From the IMG/VR virus record IMGVR_UViG_3300030118_002568, positions 1 through 57,894 of that record: a stretch of DNA of 57,894 nt; one strand, 5' to 3'. Shown piece after piece: positions 7,376 through 28,108 of this stretch. Below the pieces are notes generated by a model. It was not told where the DNA came from. It made no database searches and was given only the letters and a program-made list of their open reading frames with translations. The DNA is from a virus. A program made the translations under genes and the position numbers. Within the stretch, counting starts at the first letter, position 1. Every line of letters begins with the position of its first letter.

Positions 7376-7405
7376 AACTGAATGAAAAACAAAGGAGAAA
7401 TGAAA

Positions 7406-7606
7406 ATGAAATTGATAATACAGAATGAAACAGGCCATACAACAATGGAAGTGAACGCATCAGGCGTTATCGAGCAGATAAACGACCACCCTACACATTG
7501 GGTGATTGTCGATGACGTTATGGTGATGAGGGAGAACATCCCTGATGTTGATTGGGAAACCGTCAATGAAGTTAGGCTGATGGAAGAAGTCGTAGGCGGC
7601 TACTGA
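7406..7606 (+). CDS. ThiS/ubiquitin-like beta-grasp protein ending Gly-Gly-Tyr
   Basis: 66 residues from the ATG 9 bases after AAAGGAG (a start two codons earlier is possible). The order of elements matches ThiS/MoaD-type ubiquitin folds: strand KLIIQNE, strand TTMEVNA, helix SGVIEQINDH, strand HWVIVDDVMV, a turn with IPDVDW, and a last strand NEVRLMEEVVGGY. Length and the position of the final Gly-Gly equal those of bacterial ThiS (66 residues, ending GG). One extra Tyr follows the di-glycine, so a protease would have to expose the GG, as with ubiquitin precursors. An E1-like enzyme (12181) and a JAMM protease (13712) are encoded in the same gene series. A classical ThiS or MoaD role is possible but no thiamine or molybdopterin genes are present. 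Assigned from fold pattern only. Confidence 0.65.
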   Translation: MKLIIQNETGHTTMEVNASGVIEQINDHPTHWVIVDDVMVMRENIPDVDWETVNEVRLMEEVVGGY

Positions 7607-7691
7607 ATCAGTCTTAGATAGTCTTAGCAGTAGTTAGATTGACTGCCGAGTGGGTGCAATGCCCATCTTAGACTCAATAGGAGATGAATAT

Positions 7692-9593
7692 ATGGAAATA
7701 CAACAAGAAATACTATCAGATATTACTGTGCATATGAAGTATGCAAAGTGGAAAGAAGCAGAACAAAGAAAAGAAACATGGGAGGAGATTTGCAATAGAA
7801 ACAGGCAAATGCACCTCGACACAATAGCAAGGAGAGAACTTACACAATCAAGCGATGCTCTTGGGAAGGATGTACTAATTGAGAGAATCAATGATGTCTA
7901 TGACAACTACGTTATCCCGAAGAAGGTACTACCTTCAATGAGGTCAATGCAGTTTGCAGGAAAGCCAATTGAACTATCACCTAATCGTGTTTACAATTGT
8001 GCTTACATGCCTATCGACCATTATCTGTCGTTCTCAGAAGCAATGTTCCTATTGCTAGGAGGCACAGGTGTTGGCTACTCAGTTCAAAGACATCATGTAG
8101 AGAAGTTGCCTGAGATTAGACTACCTAACCCAAAGAGAACTTACAGACATCTAGTTGCTGATTCCATTGAAGGATGGGCAGATGCAGTCAAGGTGTTGTT
8201 TGAGTCTTACATTGGTAAGAGAGCAACAACAGTCAGATTCGACTACTCAGACATCAGACCAAAAGGTGCGTTGTTAAAGACTAGTGGTGGTAAAGCACCC
8301 GGCCCTCAACCACTTAGAGAATGTCTAGTTAAGGTGGAAGGTATTCTTGCTAACAAAGACAATGGAGACAAACTAACTACACTGGAAGCACACGATATTG
8401 TTTGTTATATTGCAGACGCAGTATTAGCAGGTGGCATTCGTAGAGCAGCACTAATCAGTCTGTTCAGTGCTGATGATGATGACATGATAACATCGAAGTC
8501 AGGACACTTTTGGGAGAAGAACCCACAGAGAGCAAGAGCAAACAACTCAGTAGTTCTACTACGTCACAGAATCAAGAGGGACTTCTTCAACAATCTATGG
8601 AAGAGAGTTCAAGACTCAGGTTCAGGAGAACCGGGTTTCTACTTCACGAATGACAAGGATTGGGGAACAAACCCCTGCTGCGAGATAGCACTTAGACCCT
8701 ATCAGTTCTGTAACTTGACAGAAGTGAATGTATCTGATGTTAGAACACAGAAGGAACTCAATGCTAGAGTTAACGCTGCAACCTTCTTAGGAACATTACA
8801 AGCATCCTATACAGACTTCCACTATCTAAGGGAAGTTTGGAAGAAGACATCTGAGAAAGATGCCTTGTTAGGAGTTTCAATGACAGGCATTGCAAGCGGA
8901 GCAGTATTGAATCTAGACTTAGAGGCGGCTGCTGAGAAAGCAAGAAGCGTGAATGAAGTGATTTCAACTGCTCTAGGTATTAACACAGCAGCGAGAATCA
9001 CTTGTGTCAAACCTGCTGGAACTACCAGTCTAGTTATGGGAACATCATCAGGCATTCATGCTTGGTGGTCTCAATACTACATCAGGAGAATCAGAGTGTT
9101 GAAGACGGAATCAATCTACAACTATCTGATAACCAAGTTCCCTGATTTGGTTGAGGATGACTATCACAATCCTAATCAGGCCATCATCTCAATTCCTCAG
9201 AAGACTCCTGATGGAACTTCAATAACGAGAGAGGAAACAGCATTAGAGATGTTGGAGCGAGTTAAGAGAGTATCAGTTGATTGGGTTGTAACTGGACACA
9301 ATCGAGGAGTTAACACTCACAACGTTTCTGCAACAGTCAACATCCGTGAGGATGAATGGGATGATGTGAGAAACTGGATGTGGAAGAACAGAGACTTCTA
9401 CAATGGTCTCTCTGTTCTACCGTTCGATGGTGGTGTCTACAAGCAAGCACCACACGAACCAATAAGCAAGAAGCAATACGAAACTATGCTCAAACTTCTG
9501 ACTGAGATTGATTTGACTGAAGTTATTGAGTTAGAGGACAACACCGACTTGCAAGGAGAACTTGCTTGTGCAGGTGGAGTCTGTGAAATATGA
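7692..9593 (+). CDS. nrdJ: Adenosylcobalamin-dependent ribonucleotide reductase (class II, monomeric type)
   Basis: Reduces ribonucleotides to deoxyribonucleotides using a cobalamin-generated thiyl radical; supplies DNA precursors during replication. The start at 7692 is chosen because AGGAGATGA precedes it; an upstream GTG at 7650 has none. 633 residues. Signatures: PSMRSMQFAG and YNCAYMP (first redox Cys), LLGGTGVGYS, RPKGALLKTSGG, GEPGFYF, and NPCCE with C329 and E331 at the radical-Cys/Glu spacing, plus C340 eleven residues on, exactly as C408 and C419 in Lactobacillus leichmannii RTPR. A conserved KPAGTTSLVMGTSSGIH follows and the C-terminus CAGGVCEI gives the swinging redox pair. The length is shorter than the roughly 740 of bacterial RTPR. 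The gene overlaps its follower by ATGA. Confidence 0.92.
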   Translation: MEIQQEILSDITVHMKYAKWKEAEQRKETWEEICNRNRQMHLDTIARRELTQSSDALGKDVLIERINDVYDNYVIPKKVLPSMRSMQFAGKPIELSPNRVYNCAYMPIDHYLSFSEAMFLLLGGTGVGYSVQRHHVEKLPEIRLPNPKRTYRHLVADSIEGWADAVKVLFESYIGKRATTVRFDYSDIRPKGALLKTSGGKAPGPQPLRECLVKVEGILANKDNGDKLTTLEAHDIVCYIADAVLAGGIRRAALISLFSADDDDMITSKSGHFWEKNPQRARANNSVVLLRHRIKRDFFNNLWKRVQDSGSGEPGFYFTNDKDWGTNPCCEIALRPYQFCNLTEVNVSDVRTQKELNARVNAATFLGTLQASYTDFHYLREVWKKTSEKDALLGVSMTGIASGAVLNLDLEAAAEKARSVNEVISTALGINTAARITCVKPAGTTSLVMGTSSGIHAWWSQYYIRRIRVLKTESIYNYLITKFPDLVEDDYHNPNQAIISIPQKTPDGTSITREETALEMLERVKRVSVDWVVTGHNRGVNTHNVSATVNIREDEWDDVRNWMWKNRDFYNGLSVLPFDGGVYKQAPHEPISKKQYETMLKLLTEIDLTEVIELEDNTDLQGELACAGGVCEI

Positions 9594-9871
9594 ATAGAGA
9601 ACAAATTCTAGCAATAGAAGATGAGGTCATCGATGGGATGACTAACGCTGGTGCTAAAGAGAGTCTCTCTGCTCTATACAAGAGGACTAGGGAAGATGGG
9701 AGAAGATATCCATCAACCCTAGTTCTCAACAGAATCAGATACTATATGCGTTTAGGATATAGTAATTTAACAACAGAGGAATTAGAATCCCTGTATGATA
9801 AGAAAATGTATTATGAAAGAAATGGTGATATAAATGAAAATAAAGATGACATTACCCACAGTAAGAAGTGA
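9590..9871 (+). CDS. Hypothetical protein, 93 aa
   Basis: Starts by ATGA overlap with the reductase. Helical, charged (MNREQILAIEDEVIDGMTNA; YKRTREDGRRYPS). Its last 38 bases overlap the next frame. No family is recognised. Confidence 0.6.
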   Translation: MNREQILAIEDEVIDGMTNAGAKESLSALYKRTREDGRRYPSTLVLNRIRYYMRLGYSNLTTEELESLYDKKMYYERNGDINENKDDITHSKK

Positions 9872-11072
9872 CAGAGAAAGAGTAACACAGACTAGTTCAT
9901 TCTTGTGTAAAACGAATAGACCGTTTTTGCAAGGCAGATACTCCCGAAACCAATTCGGTGAGATTGAGATGAACATGGGCTACTCTTCAAACAGCAGGAA
10001 AAAGTTCCATGAGAATGTATATTGGAATACGTTCGCTCAGAATATGTATAAGGTGTTTGTCAAGAATCATAGCACTAGTAAGTCAAACGAAATAACTTGG
10101 ATTACCTTCCGATATAACAACGGTGATTCAAGCATAATGCTGAGAAAGGATGGCAATTCCATATACATGAATGGTGTCAAAAAGAATCAAGTCGATGTTG
10201 CTATGGCTCTTGCCAAGATAATAGGTTTCGGTGCTATCAATCGTTGTGCTGATGCTATGGATAACTACATCGATAGAAATGTCACATACTCGTCAAACAT
10301 ACTCTACTCATTGGAGAACAGAACACCGTATTGGTTGTTTGAAGATGGAAGAAAGGTGCAAGTCAAGATAAACACATCTCTGATAGGTAGAGATGAAGTT
10401 GCCTTTGAGATATCCGAGAACATTTGGGGTTCTCTTTCTCTAGATGAGGCAAACACATTCATCGACTGTTACAGGAACAAGGCAAAGAGGTCAAAGAAGT
10501 GGGCAGATATCAGTCCATCCAATCTATGGTTCAACATGTTTGGCACACATGCCACTGAGTCACAAGAGCAGTTGATGAAAGCATGGTTGATGCAGAACAG
10601 AACAGATTGGATTGTCGAGGAAAGGGCATTCAAACTATTGAAGGAAATGGATGAGAAAGACCAGTATACTCTAGTGGACACAAGGAAGTTCTTGAAATAT
10701 GCAGATGGTTCTCCCGGTAGCAGTGGTATTGAATTGGATGGACTATCAACACAACATAACTTTGCCATGCACGTTAGAGGAGAGTTGGGAGACTGGTTAG
10801 TTTACCCCAACAACAGAACAACTGGTTCACAGAGATGCAGTGTCGTCTTCTTCAAGAAGATGAATTTAGTTGACGGCCCTTTCTGTATTGATGATGTCAA
10901 TGGAAAGAACGTCATGGGAGACCAAATTGCAACAAGAGCAACATTGGTATTCAATGACAAGGTGGGAACAAAGATAGTGAGAACATTGCAATCTGTCAGC
11001 CCGACTGGTTTCAGAGTACCAAATAGCGTCTTGAGAAACAGTAGATTCACGGAGAAGATAACATGGAAGTAA
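9834..11072 (+). CDS. Uncharacterised protein, 412 aa
   Basis: A large gene between the reductase and TFB that I do not recognise. It is basic at the N-terminus (VRSDRERVTQTSSFLCK), contains a helical middle (QVDVAMALAKIIGFGAINRC) and WF/W-rich segments (SPSNLWFNMFGTHATES). The C-terminal half looks beta-rich (FAMHVRGELGDWLVYPNNRT). No membrane segment, Walker motif, nuclease motif or zinc site is evident. An internal ATG at 9846 is an alternative start. It overlaps TFB by ten bases, suggesting co-expression with transcription takeover functions. Confidence 0.7.
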   Translation: MKIKMTLPTVRSDRERVTQTSSFLCKTNRPFLQGRYSRNQFGEIEMNMGYSSNSRKKFHENVYWNTFAQNMYKVFVKNHSTSKSNEITWITFRYNNGDSSIMLRKDGNSIYMNGVKKNQVDVAMALAKIIGFGAINRCADAMDNYIDRNVTYSSNILYSLENRTPYWLFEDGRKVQVKINTSLIGRDEVAFEISENIWGSLSLDEANTFIDCYRNKAKRSKKWADISPSNLWFNMFGTHATESQEQLMKAWLMQNRTDWIVEERAFKLLKEMDEKDQYTLVDTRKFLKYADGSPGSSGIELDGLSTQHNFAMHVRGELGDWLVYPNNRTTGSQRCSVVFFKKMNLVDGPFCIDDVNGKNVMGDQIATRATLVFNDKVGTKIVRTLQSVSPTGFRVPNSVLRNSRFTEKITWK

Positions 11073-11950
11073 CAATGAAATGTCCTGAATGTTCTGAGTT
11101 TGATTGGACATTCGATGACGTATTGGGAGAGAACGTTTGTGACCACTGTGGATTGGTTCATGTTGTAAGACCTTTTGAGGAGTCATCTAGAGCAGCAGAG
11201 GTTTACGAAGTATCAAACGTTCTAGGTTCTATGATTATCGAGAGGGATTCAAACTACAAAACAGGACAACTGCATAGAATGAAGAAACATCACATGTTTG
11301 CAGCGATGTTATCTGATACTGATAGAAGAACGATTACGCTATGTAACATGATTCTATCTAATTACAGTATAAGCAAATCAATTAGAAACAATGTGGGTGT
11401 GTATCTAAGGTCATTGAATGCAGAGCATGTATTCAGAGGTTGTAGTGTAGAACATAGGGCTGCTGCACTTTCCTTTTACATTCTGAAAGAGAGTAACATA
11501 CCGATGAATATCAGAATGCATAGTAAGTATTCTATGGTTGACAGTAAGTACATCTCTCGTTGGGCAAAGAGAATAGCAAGGCACTTCAGAAAGTCATATG
11601 TGTTTTCCCAAGAGAATGCGATGGGTAATGCAACAGGCATCATAGACAGATTAGGAGTTATCCCTGAAGGATATCGGCCTGATGCTCTCACCATGATTCA
11701 GTATCTTGAGACCTTCTACAAGGAGCGTGACATCCGTTTCTCTCCTAATAAGATGGTCGCTGCTCTTTGGTTAGTATCAAGGATGGGAAACTACAACATA
11801 ACACAGAAGGATTTAGTGAAGTCTTCGGGCAACACTTCATCTGAAATAGGAATAAGAGAGCAGATAAGAGAAATGCAGCGAACGTTTAATTTGACAAGGA
11901 AGGAGTTGTACTCCTTATCTGTGCATGATTTCGTATCAGGAGCGTATTAA
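11063..11950 (+). CDS. tfb: Archaeal transcription initiation factor B (TFB/TFIIB)
   Basis: Recruits RNA polymerase to TBP-bound promoters; acts in the host cytoplasm at promoters. 295 residues, the usual TFB length. N-terminal zinc ribbon CPECSEFDW...VCDHCGLV (four Cys, residues about 6-34), then a linker, then two cyclin-like helical repeats (about 95-190 and 195-290), the first with VEHRAAALSFYIL and the second with FSPNKMVAALWLVSRM followed by a helix-turn-helix region. GGAG stands about 9 bases before the ATG. A viral copy could redirect host polymerase to viral promoters or support late transcription. It is divergent from cellular TFBs in the repeats. Confidence 0.88.
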   Translation: MEVTMKCPECSEFDWTFDDVLGENVCDHCGLVHVVRPFEESSRAAEVYEVSNVLGSMIIERDSNYKTGQLHRMKKHHMFAAMLSDTDRRTITLCNMILSNYSISKSIRNNVGVYLRSLNAEHVFRGCSVEHRAAALSFYILKESNIPMNIRMHSKYSMVDSKYISRWAKRIARHFRKSYVFSQENAMGNATGIIDRLGVIPEGYRPDALTMIQYLETFYKERDIRFSPNKMVAALWLVSRMGNYNITQKDLVKSSGNTSSEIGIREQIREMQRTFNLTRKELYSLSVHDFVSGAY

Positions 11951-11951
11951 G

Positions 11952-12191
11952 ATGGAAGATGTAATTAACACATTAAAGAAAATGCAATACCACTTCAGTA
12001 AGTTCATTGAAGAGTATGAGAGTCTACCACAGTTGAAGAACATAGTAAGAAGGACTGTGCTAGAAGACGCAATCTCCGTTGTCGGTGCGACAATGGATGG
12101 AATAACACATGAGATAGTCGATGCTTGGCATGACTATCAACAACAACAAATAGATGGAGTAATAGATATAGGTGATAAAAATGATGAATAG
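11952..12191 (+). CDS. Hypothetical helical protein, 79 aa
   Basis: The start is placed at 11952 (MEDVINTLKKMQYHFSKFIE) because GGAG overlaps the end of TFB just upstream. Helical throughout, Gln-rich near the C-terminus (DYQQQQIDGVID). Its end overlaps the E1-like gene by eleven bases. No family is recognised. Confidence 0.6.
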   Translation: MEDVINTLKKMQYHFSKFIEEYESLPQLKNIVRRTVLEDAISVVGATMDGITHEIVDAWHDYQQQQIDGVIDIGDKNDE

Positions 12192-12777
12192 GAAAATAAT
12201 GATAATTGGAGCAGGAGGAATAGGGAGTTTTCTAACTCAGTTCCTCCAAAGACTAGGATATAGAATAACAGTGTATGATGATGACTCAGTTGAGAGAAAG
12301 AACTTGGGTTATCAGAACTTCACTAATGGTGACATTGGTGAGAACAAGGCAATGACCCTATCTGATAGAGTATGGGACACTGCTTTTCGTGGAACAGTCG
12401 CTGATGAACCCTACAAGGTTCTAACTGCAAAGCAGTTACAAGGTTATGACTTGGTGGTGTGCTGTGCAGACAACCTTGCTGTAAGGCGTTTGTTGTATCA
12501 GCAGGGGTTTGGTGCAGATGCTAAGTTGAAGTGGCTAGATTTGCGAGCGCAGGGGCGAAATGCCCTATTGCTATCCTATCTCTCTGACCCCTTGAAGGGT
12601 AACAGACTAGCAGAGGGAGCAGAGGGTTCTTTCTCATGCCAAGCAACATCTTGGGATGGGAGTGCAAGAGACATAGACTGTATGAATATTGTAATTGCTG
12701 CAACAGCAGTTCAGTGGATACAGAAGTGGTTCAACGACAACGATGATGTCAAAGACATGATGGTGTTGAACATATGA
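12181..12777 (+). CDS. E1/ThiF/MoeB-like adenylating enzyme
   Basis: About 198 residues, a single E1-type adenylation domain. These enzymes activate the C-terminal Gly of ubiquitin-like proteins with ATP. Seen: the nucleotide-binding loop IIGAGGIGSF at residues 8-17, the acidic strand end YDDDSV, NLGYQNF where MoeB/ThiF have NLxRQ (the Arg is replaced by Tyr), the GENKA lysine, and VVCCADNLAVRR with the Mg-binding Asp. A Cys in GSFSCQATS might accept the thioester, but this is uncertain. There is no CxxC zinc pair. The ribosome-binding GGTGAT ends four bases before the ATG. Upstream in the same gene series is a ThiS-like protein, and downstream a JAMM protease, which supports a conjugation or sulfur-transfer system. 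Confidence 0.85.
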   Translation: MMNRKIMIIGAGGIGSFLTQFLQRLGYRITVYDDDSVERKNLGYQNFTNGDIGENKAMTLSDRVWDTAFRGTVADEPYKVLTAKQLQGYDLVVCCADNLAVRRLLYQQGFGADAKLKWLDLRAQGRNALLLSYLSDPLKGNRLAEGAEGSFSCQATSWDGSARDIDCMNIVIAATAVQWIQKWFNDNDDVKDMMVLNI

Positions 12778-12941
12778 AGAAATGTGGTTGTGAAGAGTGT
12801 TCCTGTCACTATCCGCTTGAGACTTTTCTAGGTCAAGCGAGTAGTGCAGGAGTGCCTCTTCCACTTAAGGAAGCAACAGTAATTTGCGGTAGATGTAAAC
12901 AGAATCTATCGTGTAGTAAATGTAGAGGTGAAGATGAATGA
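12774..12941 (+). CDS. Cys-rich zinc protein next to E1, 55 aa
   Basis: Begins inside the E1 stop (ATGA) and ends in the same way. Nine Cys and one His in 55 residues: CGCEECSCH at residues 4-12 and CGRCKQNLSCSKC at 38-50, enough for two zinc ions in a RING or treble-clef-like layout. RING identity is not demonstrated. Because of its place directly after the E1-like gene it is a candidate partner, possibly a ligase-like or substrate adaptor, in the same pathway. Confidence 0.65.
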   Translation: MKKCGCEECSCHYPLETFLGQASSAGVPLPLKEATVICGRCKQNLSCSKCRGEDE

Positions 12942-13183
12942 GAGCGAGTTCAAAGATACACGTTGAATATGAAGTATTGAAATATATAATGGATAAAATA
13001 GACTTAACAGAATTAGAAGAGAAGATGGTGCTACAACACAAAGGCGACCAGTATTACTCTCAACTAGAAAAGCGTTGGAAGGATGGTGTCAATGAGATTG
13101 CATCATTTGTTAACAACAAGATAGAGAAGAGACTGCACAGGTTGCCGAAGAAGCATCCAGCATACAAGGAGAAAGGAGAATGA
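12938..13183 (+). CDS. Hypothetical basic helical protein, 81 aa
   Basis: MRASSKIHVEYEVLKYIMDK, with a basic C-terminus (KIEKRLHRLPKKHPAYKEKG). Overlaps its neighbours on both sides by four bases. No family is recognised. Confidence 0.6.
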   Translation: MRASSKIHVEYEVLKYIMDKIDLTELEEKMVLQHKGDQYYSQLEKRWKDGVNEIASFVNNKIEKRLHRLPKKHPAYKEKGE

Positions 13184-13479
13184 TTATCCATTTCCAAATC
13201 CTAGACAATACCCTTTGTGGTGCTGAGTATCAAGAGCCTTCTGAGGAACAAGCGAAGAACGGTAGATTGTGCCATGACTGCATACAGGTTATGTGGAAGG
13301 AAGAGTACAGAAGAAACACCTTGCGACCTTACATAAAGAAGCATGGTGTTAGTGTAAAAGAGAAAGACGAACTAGCAGAGAAGTTGAAGAAGAAGCAAGG
13401 GGTTGTAGTCGAGCAACCTAGATTGTCTCCACCGAGACCAATCAAATCACTTCGACATTATATGAAGGTGAAAGCATGA
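13180..13479 (+). CDS. Hypothetical protein with possible zinc site, 99 aa
   Basis: Starts MIIHFQILDNTLCGAEYQEP. C13 together with CHDC (residues 31-34) could bind zinc, followed by a long basic tail (YRRNTLRPYIKKHG; KLKKKQGVV) that may bind nucleic acid. Located between the E1-like and JAMM genes with four-base overlaps. Confidence 0.6.
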   Translation: MIIHFQILDNTLCGAEYQEPSEEQAKNGRLCHDCIQVMWKEEYRRNTLRPYIKKHGVSVKEKDELAEKLKKKQGVVVEQPRLSPPRPIKSLRHYMKVKA

Positions 13480-13715
13480 CAGAAGATGCAAATATAGAAG
13501 ACATAAGCGAAGAAGATATAGGACACATATTGTCGATAATAGCGACAGATGGATATTACAAACAGGCAGAGATAGTCAAGGTGACTTGCCCTGTTTGTGG
13601 TGAGCAGTTCTTGGGAACGAAAAGACATGCTGGTGGGTTCATAGCAGGACACAGAGCATATCATGAGTTTGAGAACGAGCAGGATATGAGAGTAGAACAA
13701 ATGGGAGGAATATGA
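13476..13715 (+). CDS. C2H2-type zinc finger protein, 79 aa
   Basis: Acidic N-terminal half (EDANIEDISEEDIGHILSII), then VTCPVCGEQFLGTKRHAGGF and GHRAYHEF. The CxxC pair with downstream His residues makes a classical-like zinc finger around residues 33-63. It directly precedes the JAMM protease and overlaps it by four bases. DNA, RNA or ubiquitin-fold binding are all possible. Confidence 0.65.
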   Translation: MTEDANIEDISEEDIGHILSIIATDGYYKQAEIVKVTCPVCGEQFLGTKRHAGGFIAGHRAYHEFENEQDMRVEQMGGI

Positions 13716-14275
13716 AAATGAAAACAAATGAAACAGAATATGAAGATGGTAAGATAGAAGGCTTAGAGGTAAAGGATGAGAATTGGATTGAGGACATTAA
13801 AACTGTATTTAACTCGATACAGTTTGTCTATCCATTCCCCGACCCACAAACAGAGGCATTCTTTACGGTGATTTGGAATAAATCGCTTAATGCATTCGAT
13901 TCACCTAGAGAGGTACAGGTGATTGTTGATGCTAAGAATGACCTATATTGCAGTGTAGGTACATTTGGGTTTGTGAGTTTCAAGAACCAAGATGGACAAC
14001 TGGATGGTATGAAGTTACCATTGAAGTGTTGGATACACACACATCCGTTTGGTCGAGCATTCTTCAGTGGCACTGATTGGAAAACAATCAAGTCATGGAA
14101 AGGAATGATGGAGAGTGCAACGGTTCTTGGTGATAATCAGTTCATCTCCTATGATTGTAATAGCGAGATTGCAAAGCAAGTGCAGTATGGTTTGTATCAA
14201 CAACACCCTGAGACAGACGATAAGCCTGAATGGGTAAAAGTAGCAGAAGATGTATTGGATGGTGAAGAAGAATGA
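13712..14275 (+). CDS. JAMM/MPN (JAB1) family metalloprotease
   Basis: 187 residues (an alternative start two codons in gives better spacing to GGAGG). It contains the full JAMM zinc motif H-x-H-P-x6-S-x2-D as IHTHPFGRAFFSGTD, with H109, H111, S119 and D122. The upstream strand QVIVDAKNDLYCSVGTF fits the MPN sheet. JAMM proteases cut after the C-terminal Gly-Gly of ubiquitin-like proteins, either maturing precursors or removing them from targets. The ThiS-like protein at 7406 ends Gly-Gly-Tyr, a fitting substrate, and an E1-like enzyme lies 0.9 kb upstream. Phage tail JAMM proteins (lambda K type) are an alternative, but this gene is among early genes, carries no NlpC domain and is far from the tail genes. 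Confidence 0.85.
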   Translation: MKMKTNETEYEDGKIEGLEVKDENWIEDIKTVFNSIQFVYPFPDPQTEAFFTVIWNKSLNAFDSPREVQVIVDAKNDLYCSVGTFGFVSFKNQDGQLDGMKLPLKCWIHTHPFGRAFFSGTDWKTIKSWKGMMESATVLGDNQFISYDCNSEIAKQVQYGLYQQHPETDDKPEWVKVAEDVLDGEEE

Positions 14276-25076: not shown

Positions 25077-26756
25077 ATGATAATAGCAAATACAAAAGAT
25101 GGCATCTTTCTAAGATGGAGAGATGAGGAGAAGAAGGTCGTAGAGGAGGAGATTCCCTACGCCGACTTCTCTCCATACTTCTTTGTAGAGGCTTCCAATG
25201 TCGTAGATGCTGATACTGAAAGCAAGGTCTTCTTGAAGGAAGGTTATCAACAGAAGGAGAAGTTTCCCGCTACCATTCGTTATGAAAGAGGTGATTGGGT
25301 TAACCTTCAGGGAGATGCACTGCTGAAAGTAACTTGGACACCATACAAAACAATGAAGTCCGATGCTAGAAATGTTACTAGTAAGGTTAGAGCCTACTAC
25401 CATGATAGAGATATTCCAACCTATGAAGCAGATGTTCAGCATCACTATCGTTATGCTGTTGATAGATTGGACAAACTGCAAGAGTACAATCTAAGAAAAT
25501 GGTATTGGGATATGGAATGGATGCAAGGTGGTGAGCATGATGGTGCTATAACTGCCATTGTTGTGTACGATAACTATGATGATGAGTATTACACACTGAC
25601 TTGGCTTCCCGGTACAGATGAAACTGAAAGAACAGTTCTTGAGAGATTCATGTTGATGTTAGTTGAGAAAGACCCTGACATGCTTATCTCTTGGTTCGGT
25701 TGGAAGTTCGACTTACCTAAGTTGATTGAGAGGCTAGATGCAAATCGTATAGACCCAAGATTACTCTCTCCTGTTCACGAAGTAACAGGAGTTGAATGGA
25801 ACATCAAGGAGAGAAAGAGAGTTCTAAAGACAAAGCAGATAGAGAACTACTCTCCGATAGCACAACCAATCAAAGGCAGGATATGCGTACCACTAGACTT
25901 GGCCTTTGAGAGACAATGGAATGATGCACAGAGAGGCACTCTACCATCTCTGTCACTAGACTATGTTTCAGAGTATGTCTTAGGAGAAAAGAAACTAGTT
26001 AGTGAGAAGTTTCCCGACAAGAATGAGTTCTTCAGGAGAGGCTGGCAAGAAGACAATGAGACATATCTAGAGTATGCCTTGAAAGACGTTGAGTTAATCA
26101 AGAGGATAGACGATGAGAACTTCACTACCGAAGCCATACTGTCGTTACAACGTTTACTGATTGCACCATTCGATGCTTGCTTCTACGCTAGTAACATGGG
26201 TGGAATATACTTCATGAGAAATGCCTCATGGAAAGCACCTACGGGCAGGAAAGGAGACAGGGTAGAGTATGATGGGGCGATGGTCTATGACCCGCTCAGT
26301 GAAGGCACAAATGGTCTTCATTTGGGTGTTGCAGCATTTGACTTCGCAGGTCTGTATCCTAGCATGATGATTGCTAGGAATATCTCTTGGGAAACCAAGT
26401 CAGAGACACCAACTGAGTTTGGTGTAAATCTAAGAACACCAAAGGACTTCTCTAGAGTTGAAGACTATGACATGAGATATTACAATACAAGTGAGTTAGG
26501 ACTACTACCTAAAGCAGTTCTAGAGTTGAAAGAACTGAGAAACGAATACAAAATGAAAATGAAAGAAAGTGAAAGTAAAAGTGAATATGTGAAATGGAAC
26601 AACAACCAACTTGCAGTCAAGAGATTGATGGCATCCTTCTATGGTATCATTGCGTATCAGGGGTTCGGTTGGGCTGATGTTGATTTAGCGGCAAGCATCA
26701 CTGCTAGTGCTAGAGAAGCCATTCGTATTGCAGCATTCAAAGTGAGGGAGTTATGA
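25077..26756 (+). CDS. polB: DNA polymerase B, large N-terminal chain (split gene)
   Basis: 559 residues carrying the N-terminal domain, the 3'-5' exonuclease (Exo I WDMEW, Exo II WFGWKFD, Exo III YALKD) and the first half of the polymerase: motif A AAFDFAGLYPSMMIA with its catalytic Asp, and motif B KRLMASFYG (the usual NS is AS). It stops right after the fingers-to-palm helix AREAIRIAAFKVREL. Motif C and the thumb are in a second gene starting at 27164. Joining the two sequences gives a normal uninterrupted polymerase, so the split is exact. A split archaeal PolB is known from Methanothermobacter. The two chains probably assemble. Confidence 0.93.
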   Translation: MIIANTKDGIFLRWRDEEKKVVEEEIPYADFSPYFFVEASNVVDADTESKVFLKEGYQQKEKFPATIRYERGDWVNLQGDALLKVTWTPYKTMKSDARNVTSKVRAYYHDRDIPTYEADVQHHYRYAVDRLDKLQEYNLRKWYWDMEWMQGGEHDGAITAIVVYDNYDDEYYTLTWLPGTDETERTVLERFMLMLVEKDPDMLISWFGWKFDLPKLIERLDANRIDPRLLSPVHEVTGVEWNIKERKRVLKTKQIENYSPIAQPIKGRICVPLDLAFERQWNDAQRGTLPSLSLDYVSEYVLGEKKLVSEKFPDKNEFFRRGWQEDNETYLEYALKDVELIKRIDDENFTTEAILSLQRLLIAPFDACFYASNMGGIYFMRNASWKAPTGRKGDRVEYDGAMVYDPLSEGTNGLHLGVAAFDFAGLYPSMMIARNISWETKSETPTEFGVNLRTPKDFSRVEDYDMRYYNTSELGLLPKAVLELKELRNEYKMKMKESESKSEYVKWNNNQLAVKRLMASFYGIIAYQGFGWADVDLAASITASAREAIRIAAFKVREL

Positions 26757-26959
26757 TGCCAATCAAGGGTACAGATGTAGATTTTACGAAGGTAAAGATA
26801 AAGGAAGAGCCTAAGTCAGAGACTGAACTGAGAAAACAGGCGTTGAGTCAGATTCTCAAGGACAGTAGGCTTGCTATTAGAGTAACAGGTCGAGTTTTAT
26901 TCGGTATTGTGTTTGTTTATGGTATTGTATCAATATTACAGGATGTGAACCTAATATGA
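26753..26959 (+). CDS. Small membrane protein inserted in polB, 68 aa
   Basis: MMPIKGTDVDFTKVKIKEEP, then a charged helix and one hydrophobic segment (GRVLFGIVFVYGIVSILQDV). ATGA overlap with the polB large chain and with the next micro-gene. First of three tiny genes lying between the two polymerase chains. No family is recognised. Confidence 0.65.
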   Translation: MMPIKGTDVDFTKVKIKEEPKSETELRKQALSQILKDSRLAIRVTGRVLFGIVFVYGIVSILQDVNLI

Positions 26960-27072
26960 GTATAGAAGAATGGTCACAAGATAGATTTGCAACACTTGCA
27001 CTACTCAGAACAGTGTTTGGGTTAGTAAAAGTCATTATTGCGACTGTTATAGCAGTGGAGTTGTTAACATGA
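26956..27072 (+). CDS. Small membrane protein inserted in polB, 38 aa
   Basis: MSIEEWSQDRFATLALLRTV, followed by a hydrophobic helix (FGLVKVIIATVIAVELL). Coupled by ATGA on both ends. A single-pass membrane micro-protein. Confidence 0.6.
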   Translation: MSIEEWSQDRFATLALLRTVFGLVKVIIATVIAVELLT

Positions 27073-27173
27073 AGAGAGAAGACAAGATATTCTACTCTAG
27101 AGTGTCATTTTACATCACAGGAACGGTTGCTTTCATAAATAACACGTTTAGTTTAGTCGGGGGATGCGTATGA
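27069..27173 (+). CDS. Micro-protein inserted in polB, 34 aa
   Basis: MKREDKIFYSRVSFYITGTV, then AFINNTFSLVGGCV. Coupled by ATGA to the gene before. Its end overlaps the start of the second polymerase chain, and its last codons (GGGGGA) supply that gene's ribosome-binding site. Mildly hydrophobic. No family is recognised. Confidence 0.55.
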   Translation: MKREDKIFYSRVSFYITGTVAFINNTFSLVGGCV

Positions 27174-28108
27174 AGGTAGTTTACGGTCATACAGACTCAA
27201 TTTATGTTGATATTGAAGACAATGACATTGAAACTGCTGAGAAAACGCTGAAAATACTAAATGAGCATGTTAGAGAAGCGTTTCCTAACGTTATGGGACT
27301 GAAAGAACACCCCGTAACACTAGAGTTTGAGAAATACTTCCGAACTTTAGGTGTTGGAGCAACAAAGAATAGAAATGCAGGTCTAATTACTTGGAAAGAC
27401 GGTGAATTTCTCGATGAAGAGGAGTTTGTCATGACAGGATTCACTGCAAAGAGAGTTTCTTTGACACAATTAGCCAAAGATGTCCAACTTTCTGTCCTAA
27501 ACATGTGGGTAGAAGGTAAAACAGAGCAAGAAATTGTTTCTTATCTGAATGAAAAGTATAATTCTGTCATGAAAGGTGAGATTTCACTATCAGATGTTCT
27601 ACAAAGGAGTAGATATCGTGAAGAGAGATTCAGATTGGTCTGTAAAGACTGTAATCCAAAGGCTAGGTTCGATAAGGGATGGAGTAACAAGTCAGTAAGT
27701 GTCTTTGACTTGATGGATAGCGGTGGTAAATGCCTTGATGACTTAGGTAGAGAAATGGAACATACTAACTTCGTAACTGTTGGTGGCAAGAGACCTACCT
27801 TTGGAGCAGGAGTCGAAGGGGTCTTGTTTAGTCATTCACAAGGCTATGAGAAGATAGAGGATACCTATCTCTATCTTAGAGTTAAGAATTGTAGAGAACA
27901 TTACCTGCATCCTATAACTAAGGAGTTTACTACTCCTAACTATGTATCTAGATTAACTGCTGATGAGTTTGGTGACTTTGACCCTGATTGGTCTCACTAC
28001 GCAGAATCAGTGGTGAAGAAGGCAGAGCCTATCTTCAGAGCAATGGGGTGGGATATAATGCAGATAAAGAAAGACACACAACAATCATCCTTGGAGGAAT
28101 GGTTTTGA
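27164..28108 (+). CDS. polB: DNA polymerase B, C-terminal chain (palm motif C and thumb)
   Basis: 314 residues (start at 27164 or 27170). Begins directly with motif C, VVYGHTDSIYV: the second Asp, the metal ligand, is kept, but the first Asp of DTD is His. LEFEKYFRTLGVGATKNRNAG and the AKRVSLTQLAKDVQLSVL segment belong to the palm and thumb. Four Cys (KDCNPK and others) may hold zinc. The last residues QQSSLEEWF are a textbook PCNA-interacting peptide, tying the split enzyme to the viral PCNA. Without the 559-residue chain it lacks motifs A and B, so it should act only as part of a heterodimer. Confidence 0.92.
   Translation: MRMKVVYGHTDSIYVDIEDNDIETAEKTLKILNEHVREAFPNVMGLKEHPVTLEFEKYFRTLGVGATKNRNAGLITWKDGEFLDEEEFVMTGFTAKRVSLTQLAKDVQLSVLNMWVEGKTEQEIVSYLNEKYNSVMKGEISLSDVLQRSRYREERFRLVCKDCNPKARFDKGWSNKSVSVFDLMDSGGKCLDDLGREMEHTNFVTVGGKRPTFGAGVEGVLFSHSQGYEKIEDTYLYLRVKNCREHYLHPITKEFTTPNYVSRLTADEFGDFDPDWSHYAESVVKKAEPIFRAMGWDIMQIKKDTQQSSLEEWF

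Follow-up and report, generated by a model that had tools for sequence, protein, structure and literature searches.

Three linked genes for a predicted ubiquitin-like protein, its E1-like enzyme and a JAMM protease in a magrovirus-like contig

Why would a virus carry a small ubiquitin-like protein (Ubl) together with an enzyme that could activate it and a protease that could take it off again? The question is raised by IMG/VR virus record IMGVR_UViG_3300030118_002568, of which positions 1 to 57,894 were analysed; this full stretch of 57,894 nucleotides is called the window here. An earlier note on this DNA had pointed to a beta-grasp protein, an E1-type adenylating domain and a JAMM protease in its early region. 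Most of the Ubl systems known from prokaryotes belong to cells and act in sulfur metabolism, SAMPylation or antiphage defence. Is the small protein of the ubiquitin kind? Do the three genes belong together? And what would they do during infection? By analogy with archaeal systems we favour, with moderate confidence, a virus-encoded and reversible ubiquitin-like conjugation module that lacks a dedicated E2 enzyme and works like archaeal SAMPylation. On this reading the viruses probably attach their own Ubl to proteins during infection, and remove it. The three open reading frames (ORFs) lie on the plus strand in one long co-directional run, and they and their key residues are as follows.

7406..7606, plus strand: Ubl, predicted beta-grasp and ubiquitin-like, 66 amino acids (aa), C-terminus VVGGY (AlphaFold2 (AF2) model, Foldseek, ThiS matches in homologues, ratio of non-synonymous to synonymous substitutions (dN/dS))
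7595..7600, plus strand: Gly64-Gly65 of the Ubl, the predicted activated C-terminus (kept in 81/81 distinct loci)
7601..7603, plus strand: Tyr66 of the Ubl, a one-residue tail predicted to be trimmed (tails of relatives vary, 0-3 residues)
12181..12777, plus strand: E1-like adenylating enzyme of the ThiF fold, 198 aa (Pfam ThiF, AF2, Foldseek, invariant residues)
12637..12639, plus strand: Cys153 of the E1-like protein, in SFSCQ, candidate thioester cysteine (invariant in 52/52 homologues, kept in a second lineage)
13712..14275, plus strand: JAMM/MPN+ metalloprotease, 187 aa (Prok-JAB, AMSH and CsRpn11 profile matches, invariant residues)
14036..14077, plus strand: JAMM active-site motif, HTHPFGRAFFSGTD (HTH, S and D invariant in 56/56 homologues)

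Folds and conserved residues

The Ubl ORF was read from the ATG at 7406, with alternative starts at 7400 and 7382. Its AF2 model, built on an alignment of 46 homologues, has the order beta-beta-alpha-beta-beta-alpha-beta (pLDDT 81.9), and among the 50 Protein Data Bank (PDB) matches listed by Foldseek nearly all are ubiquitin or ubiquitin-like. The best of them is of moderate strength (E 4e-3, prob 0.99). Pfam ThiS matches nine of the 46 homologues, with a best E of 8e-4, and the window's own copy has zero Pfam matches. Despite the moderate E-values and TM-score the assignment is convincing, because the structure matches are unanimous and the protein has a Gly-Gly tail. The structure prediction thus sides with the earlier note in making 7406-7606 a predicted ubiquitin-fold protein.

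The Gly-Gly pair is invariant in all 81 distinct loci that carry the three genes. What follows it is not: nothing in nine loci, one residue in 32, two in 36 and three in four, and these tails vary freely in sequence (Y, C, L, SL, NC, NQ, RF etc.). A short variable tail after an invariant Gly-Gly looks like what is expected of a precursor that is trimmed. The suggestion that the Ubl is matured by loss of its final Tyr therefore stands as far as a removable-looking tail is concerned; a specificity for Tyr does not, given the variable tails and the nine tailless Ubls.

How good is the case for an E1? The protein matches Pfam ThiF with 67 bits and its AF2 model has pLDDT 89 and pTM 0.88, which bears out the adenylating domain proposed earlier. 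It has the hallmarks of the ThiF/MoeB group, namely a Rossmann adenylation domain with GxGGxG, Asp, Lys and DN motifs, and ten residues are invariant among 52 homologues (G10, G12, G13, G15, D33, D35, N41, Q45, K56 and D97). Cys153 may be the catalytic, thioester-forming cysteine; the thioester Cys of Uba4 likewise sits in an SCQ context. One feature is unusual: the Arg of the cellular N-L-x-R-Q motif is replaced by a nearly invariant Tyr (Tyr44), and by Phe or His in the second lineage described below. This Arg is present in the cellular and PRTRC E1s sampled and missing from the other viral E1s sampled (crAss001, Xhv12, Rctr197k and the second lineage) and from relatives in Methanoperedens.

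The closest PDB folds to the E1-like model, according to Foldseek, are Cap2, UBA5, NEDD8 E1 and MccB, and AclA is also among the best. Could the enzyme then be a MccB-like peptide modifier, which makes a bioactive product by adenylating a small protein at its C-terminus, the Gly-Gly protein being the precursor? MccB and AclA among the best structural matches speak for this, but the would-be substrate is a conserved, folded beta-grasp protein with an invariant Gly-Gly and the JAMM gene is always linked, so that we consider it very unlikely.

The JAMM assignment of the earlier note is well grounded. Prok-JAB is matched by 54 of 56 homologues, the family profile matches the deubiquitinases AMSH and CsRpn11, and E67, H109, H111, S119 and D122 are invariant, which fits Glu plus HxHx7SxxD. 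The nine loci with a tailless Ubl are informative here: each has a JAMM gene with an intact motif, and trimming is therefore probably not the sole job of the protease. This favours deconjugation over maturation alone and points to both activities.

Is the tag perhaps a sulfur carrier and not a protein modifier? The E1 would then make a Ubl thiocarboxylate that donates sulfur to tRNA, a nucleotide or a cofactor, and the JAMM protein would trim the tail or release the product. QbsE/QbsD and CysO/Mec+ are precedents. ThiS and SAMP1 are the best Pfam/NCBIfam relatives of the Ubl, and bacterial sulfur gene clusters share the three-protein composition (PMC1779556). On the other side, the closest structures to the JAMM protein are deubiquitinases, and no rhodanese or other sulfurtransferase, cysteine desulfurase or thiolase partner was recognised among the window genes scanned. 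We regard a sulfur-carrier role as rather unlikely, and the conjugation module remains the favoured reading.

Conservation and genomic setting of the set

Do the three genes travel together? Relatives were gathered by scans with the E1 and JAMM sequences, an E1 profile and the profile of an unrelated core gene, giving 120 loci distinct by JAMM or E1 sequence. All three genes are present in 81 of these, always in the order Ubl-E1-JAMM and on a single strand, so the co-occurrence that the earlier note proposed to check is seen in relatives that carry the Ubl. Loci missing a partner are mostly contigs that end too soon; those with long flanks and an incomplete set are two Methanoperedens E1 loci (L102, L103) and L095, in which the sequence upstream is probably too short to reach the Ubl. 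For the pairs tested dN/dS is 0.04-0.19, and purifying selection acts on each of the three genes. With the constant order and strand in 81 distinct loci, these values mean that the set is not due to chance. The GenBank phage collection, searched with the JAMM protein and with the Ubl, gave zero matches. Two magrovirus-like contigs (L100, L101) sit in metagenome-assembled genomes (MAGs) labelled Altibacter and Maricaulis, probably as contamination.

A neighbouring core gene for a 283-aa protein was also used as query, which cuts circularity even if the query itself came from JAMM-bearing loci. Among the best 80 of its 504 matches, JAMM was found in 44/44 contigs with enough upstream sequence; given the origin of the query and the sampling of the best 80, this count does not extend to all magroviruses. 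In the sampled relatives the set looks core rather than accessory.

This bears on a further explanation, in which the set serves counter-defence or hijacking: it would compete with or redirect a host system of the SAMP or Bil type, for example by marking host proteins for the proteasome or by taking host tags off virion proteins. Bacteria do turn Ubl conjugation on phages, as in Bil and CBASS Cap2; Borg elements have many JAMM deSAMPylases for which counter-defence has been suggested (PMC12660748); and haloarchaea SAMPylate and degrade their TBP2 (PMC4895103). But a complete tag and E1 of its own exceed the needs of a stripping enzyme, and the set looks core in the sample just described. We take this explanation to be decidedly unlikely, and return to the favoured conjugation module with the surroundings of its genes.

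11063..11950, plus strand: TFB-like transcription factor, conserved neighbour of the E1 gene (Zn_Ribbon_TF, E 7e-5, below the Pfam cut-off)
25077-28108 of the window: family-B DNA polymerase, split over two ORFs that flank a small third one

At most loci a stop-to-stop TFB frame lies within 300 bp upstream of the E1 gene or overlaps it. The RNR gene between Ubl and E1 is absent from many loci and is not essential to the set. Hence the placing of the three genes with RNR and TFB, away from tail genes, holds for the early/replication context and for TFB, and fails for RNR as an essential neighbour. Adjoining the TFB gene is a 412-aa ORF (9834-11072), conserved in 70 of 85 loci and with no Pfam or PDB profile match; the idea of a hidden E2 was rejected on that ground and for want of a match to PRTRC_B. 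E2-like families were not recognised in Pfam scans of the window genes, which a divergent E2 could escape.

Does the set process tail proteins, as TAPI (a Ubl) and TAPK (JAB plus NlpC) do in lambda, the one further Ubl/JAB pair that is well known from phages (PMC1779556)? The genes belong to the early/replication run and are not grouped with those for the tail; they include an E1, the JAMM protein is without an NlpC domain and the Ubl without an extra C-terminal domain. With gene content and location both wrong, this explanation was rejected as extremely unlikely.

The window also has recognisable RFC-like AAA and ATP-dependent ligase genes. Together with the TFB-like gene and the split polymerase these agree with published magrovirus content, and in Aoguangviridae the N- and C-terminal domains of PolB are encoded as separate genes (PMC10768690). 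The window is therefore a probable magrovirus-like contig, the family assignment being by replication genes. Three very large repetitive minus-strand ORFs (2471, 2096 and 2326 aa) at 35044-56088 are probably tail or fibre proteins.

A second, divergent lineage comes from three contigs (L104, L257, L258) that share a marine MAG labelled Acidiferrobacter and are probably viral or archaeal DNA binned there by mistake. In each, Ubl, E1 and JAMM are near neighbours, and a profile comparison aligns the Ubl with that of the magroviruses (E 8e-16). E1 and JAMM overlap or abut in all three, followed by a small ORF and then a TFB-like gene; in L257 about 0.9 kb, including a 278-aa ORF, separates Ubl from E1. 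Similarity to the TFIIB zinc ribbon is supported in L104 only; in L257 and L258 the label comes from position and from a start that resembles a zinc ribbon. A search of IMG/VR for close relatives of the L104 E1 found none. The clusters adjoin a conserved ORF of about 655 aa, partial in L257.

In Methanoperedens (L102, 9971-11174; L103, 9872-11077) an E1-like gene with YSCQ and KYQ motifs precedes an ORF of about 166 aa that ends in KGKGG. A JAMM motif of the magrovirus kind was not found nearby. The KGKGG ORF resembles a Ubl by eye; with zero significant profile matches it was set aside.

A possible cycle of tagging and removal

How might the module work? The JAMM protein would first cut after Gly-Gly and so mature the tailed Ubls. 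With ATP and Mg the E1 would then adenylate the Gly-Gly C-terminus and probably load the Ubl onto Cys153, from which it could pass, directly or with host help, to target lysines, as in SAMPylation by UbaA. Finally, the JAMM protein would take the Ubl off its targets again. Conjugation without an E2 and its reversal by a JAMM protease are established in Haloferax (PMC4443979, PMC4895103).

Which proteins would be tagged? The early position of the genes and the lasting presence of TFB beside them hint at targets in transcription or replication, of the host or of the virus. The TFB neighbour and the published SAMPylation of TBP2 make transcription factors reasonable first candidates, no more. More specifically, a core viral Ubl system could reversibly tag TBP/TFB or RNA polymerase of host or virus, as a promoter switch or for degradation of host factors. 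This is a speculative extension that we think rather unlikely to be right; if it were, it would explain why a TFB gene almost always lies nearby in both lineages.

Several points weigh against a conjugation module. Sulfur-carrier systems have the same three protein types, and a host could supply the sulfurtransferase. The Ubl model is only moderate (pTM 0.59; TM to ubiquitin about 0.45). The E1 is without the N-L-x-R-Q Arg, and its chemistry may therefore differ. Lastly, the apparent lack of an E2 covers only families recognisable by Pfam or hhalign.

Comparison with known systems

No description of archaeal viruses with a complete Ubl/E1/JAMM set was found in the literature searched; key magrovirus papers lay outside the search, and such genes could be present in their annotations without labels. 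In the magrovirus papers covered, ubiquitin, ThiF and JAMM are not mentioned where these words were looked for or in the gene profiles read. Abundant marine archaeal viruses appear to hold a complete set to tag, activate and remove, conserved in the early region. If true, this would offer biochemists a minimal ubiquitin-like system that works without an E2, reveal a new means of host control by archaeal viruses, and connect Ubl tagging with the start of transcription in archaea in a way that can be tested.

Which known system is closest? PRTRC cassettes (PRTRC_ThiF, the JAMM protein PRTRC_A, PRTRC_B, PRTRC_C and ParB) share the JAMM protein, and PRTRC_ThiF is the best NCBIfam match of the E1 in 52/52 homologues, but at 59.6 bits the E1 is far below that family's cut-off of 144.75. 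By hhalign the Ubl did not match one PRTRC_C (which ends in GAKG), nor did the ORF at 9834-11072 match two PRTRC_B proteins, and ParB was not recognised in the window genes scanned. Membership was rejected: the E1 is similar, the other components mismatch, and PRTRC_B and ParB were not found.

Bil/Bub and CBASS Cap2-Cap3 also combine an E1, a Ubl or target and a JAMM protease, and the viral E1 fold matches Cap2 best. Those systems serve the defence of bacteria and include E2 enzymes, whereas here the set is carried by a virus and no E2 was recognised.

Several phages have annotated E1-like genes. In crAss001 (gp77, gp76; L283, 2256-4663) and Rctr197k (L281, 1949-2347 and 4998-5621) an E1-like gene of a tailed phage lies near a JAMM-motif gene, and these E1s too are without the N-L-x-R-Q Arg. 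Unlike the magrovirus genes, they are annotated as thiamine biosynthesis/metalloprotease or hypothetical and have no TFB link; a separate Gly-Gly-ending Ubl of the magrovirus family was not seen nearby. Borgs resemble the present case in having JAMM proteases on archaeal extrachromosomal elements (PMC12660748). They differ in their expanded JAMM families, with a SAMP reported in one Borg (Lilac) and the E1 in the host genome, in place of a linked viral trio (PMC12660748).

The archaeal SAMP/UbaA/HvJAMM1 system differs in that the present set is virus-encoded and its Ubl often has a tail of 1-3 residues. The viral E1 is short, reaches 41 bits against a UbaA cut-off of 450 bits and is without the arginine of N-L-x-R-Q, and the SAMP1 profile matched weakly (five of 46 Ubl homologues, E 0.03). 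The two have in common a small beta-grasp modifier with a C-terminal Gly-Gly, one E1-like enzyme, a JAMM protease for reversal (predicted for the viral set) and an archaeal setting; SAMPylation does without an E2, and in the viral set no E2 was recognised.

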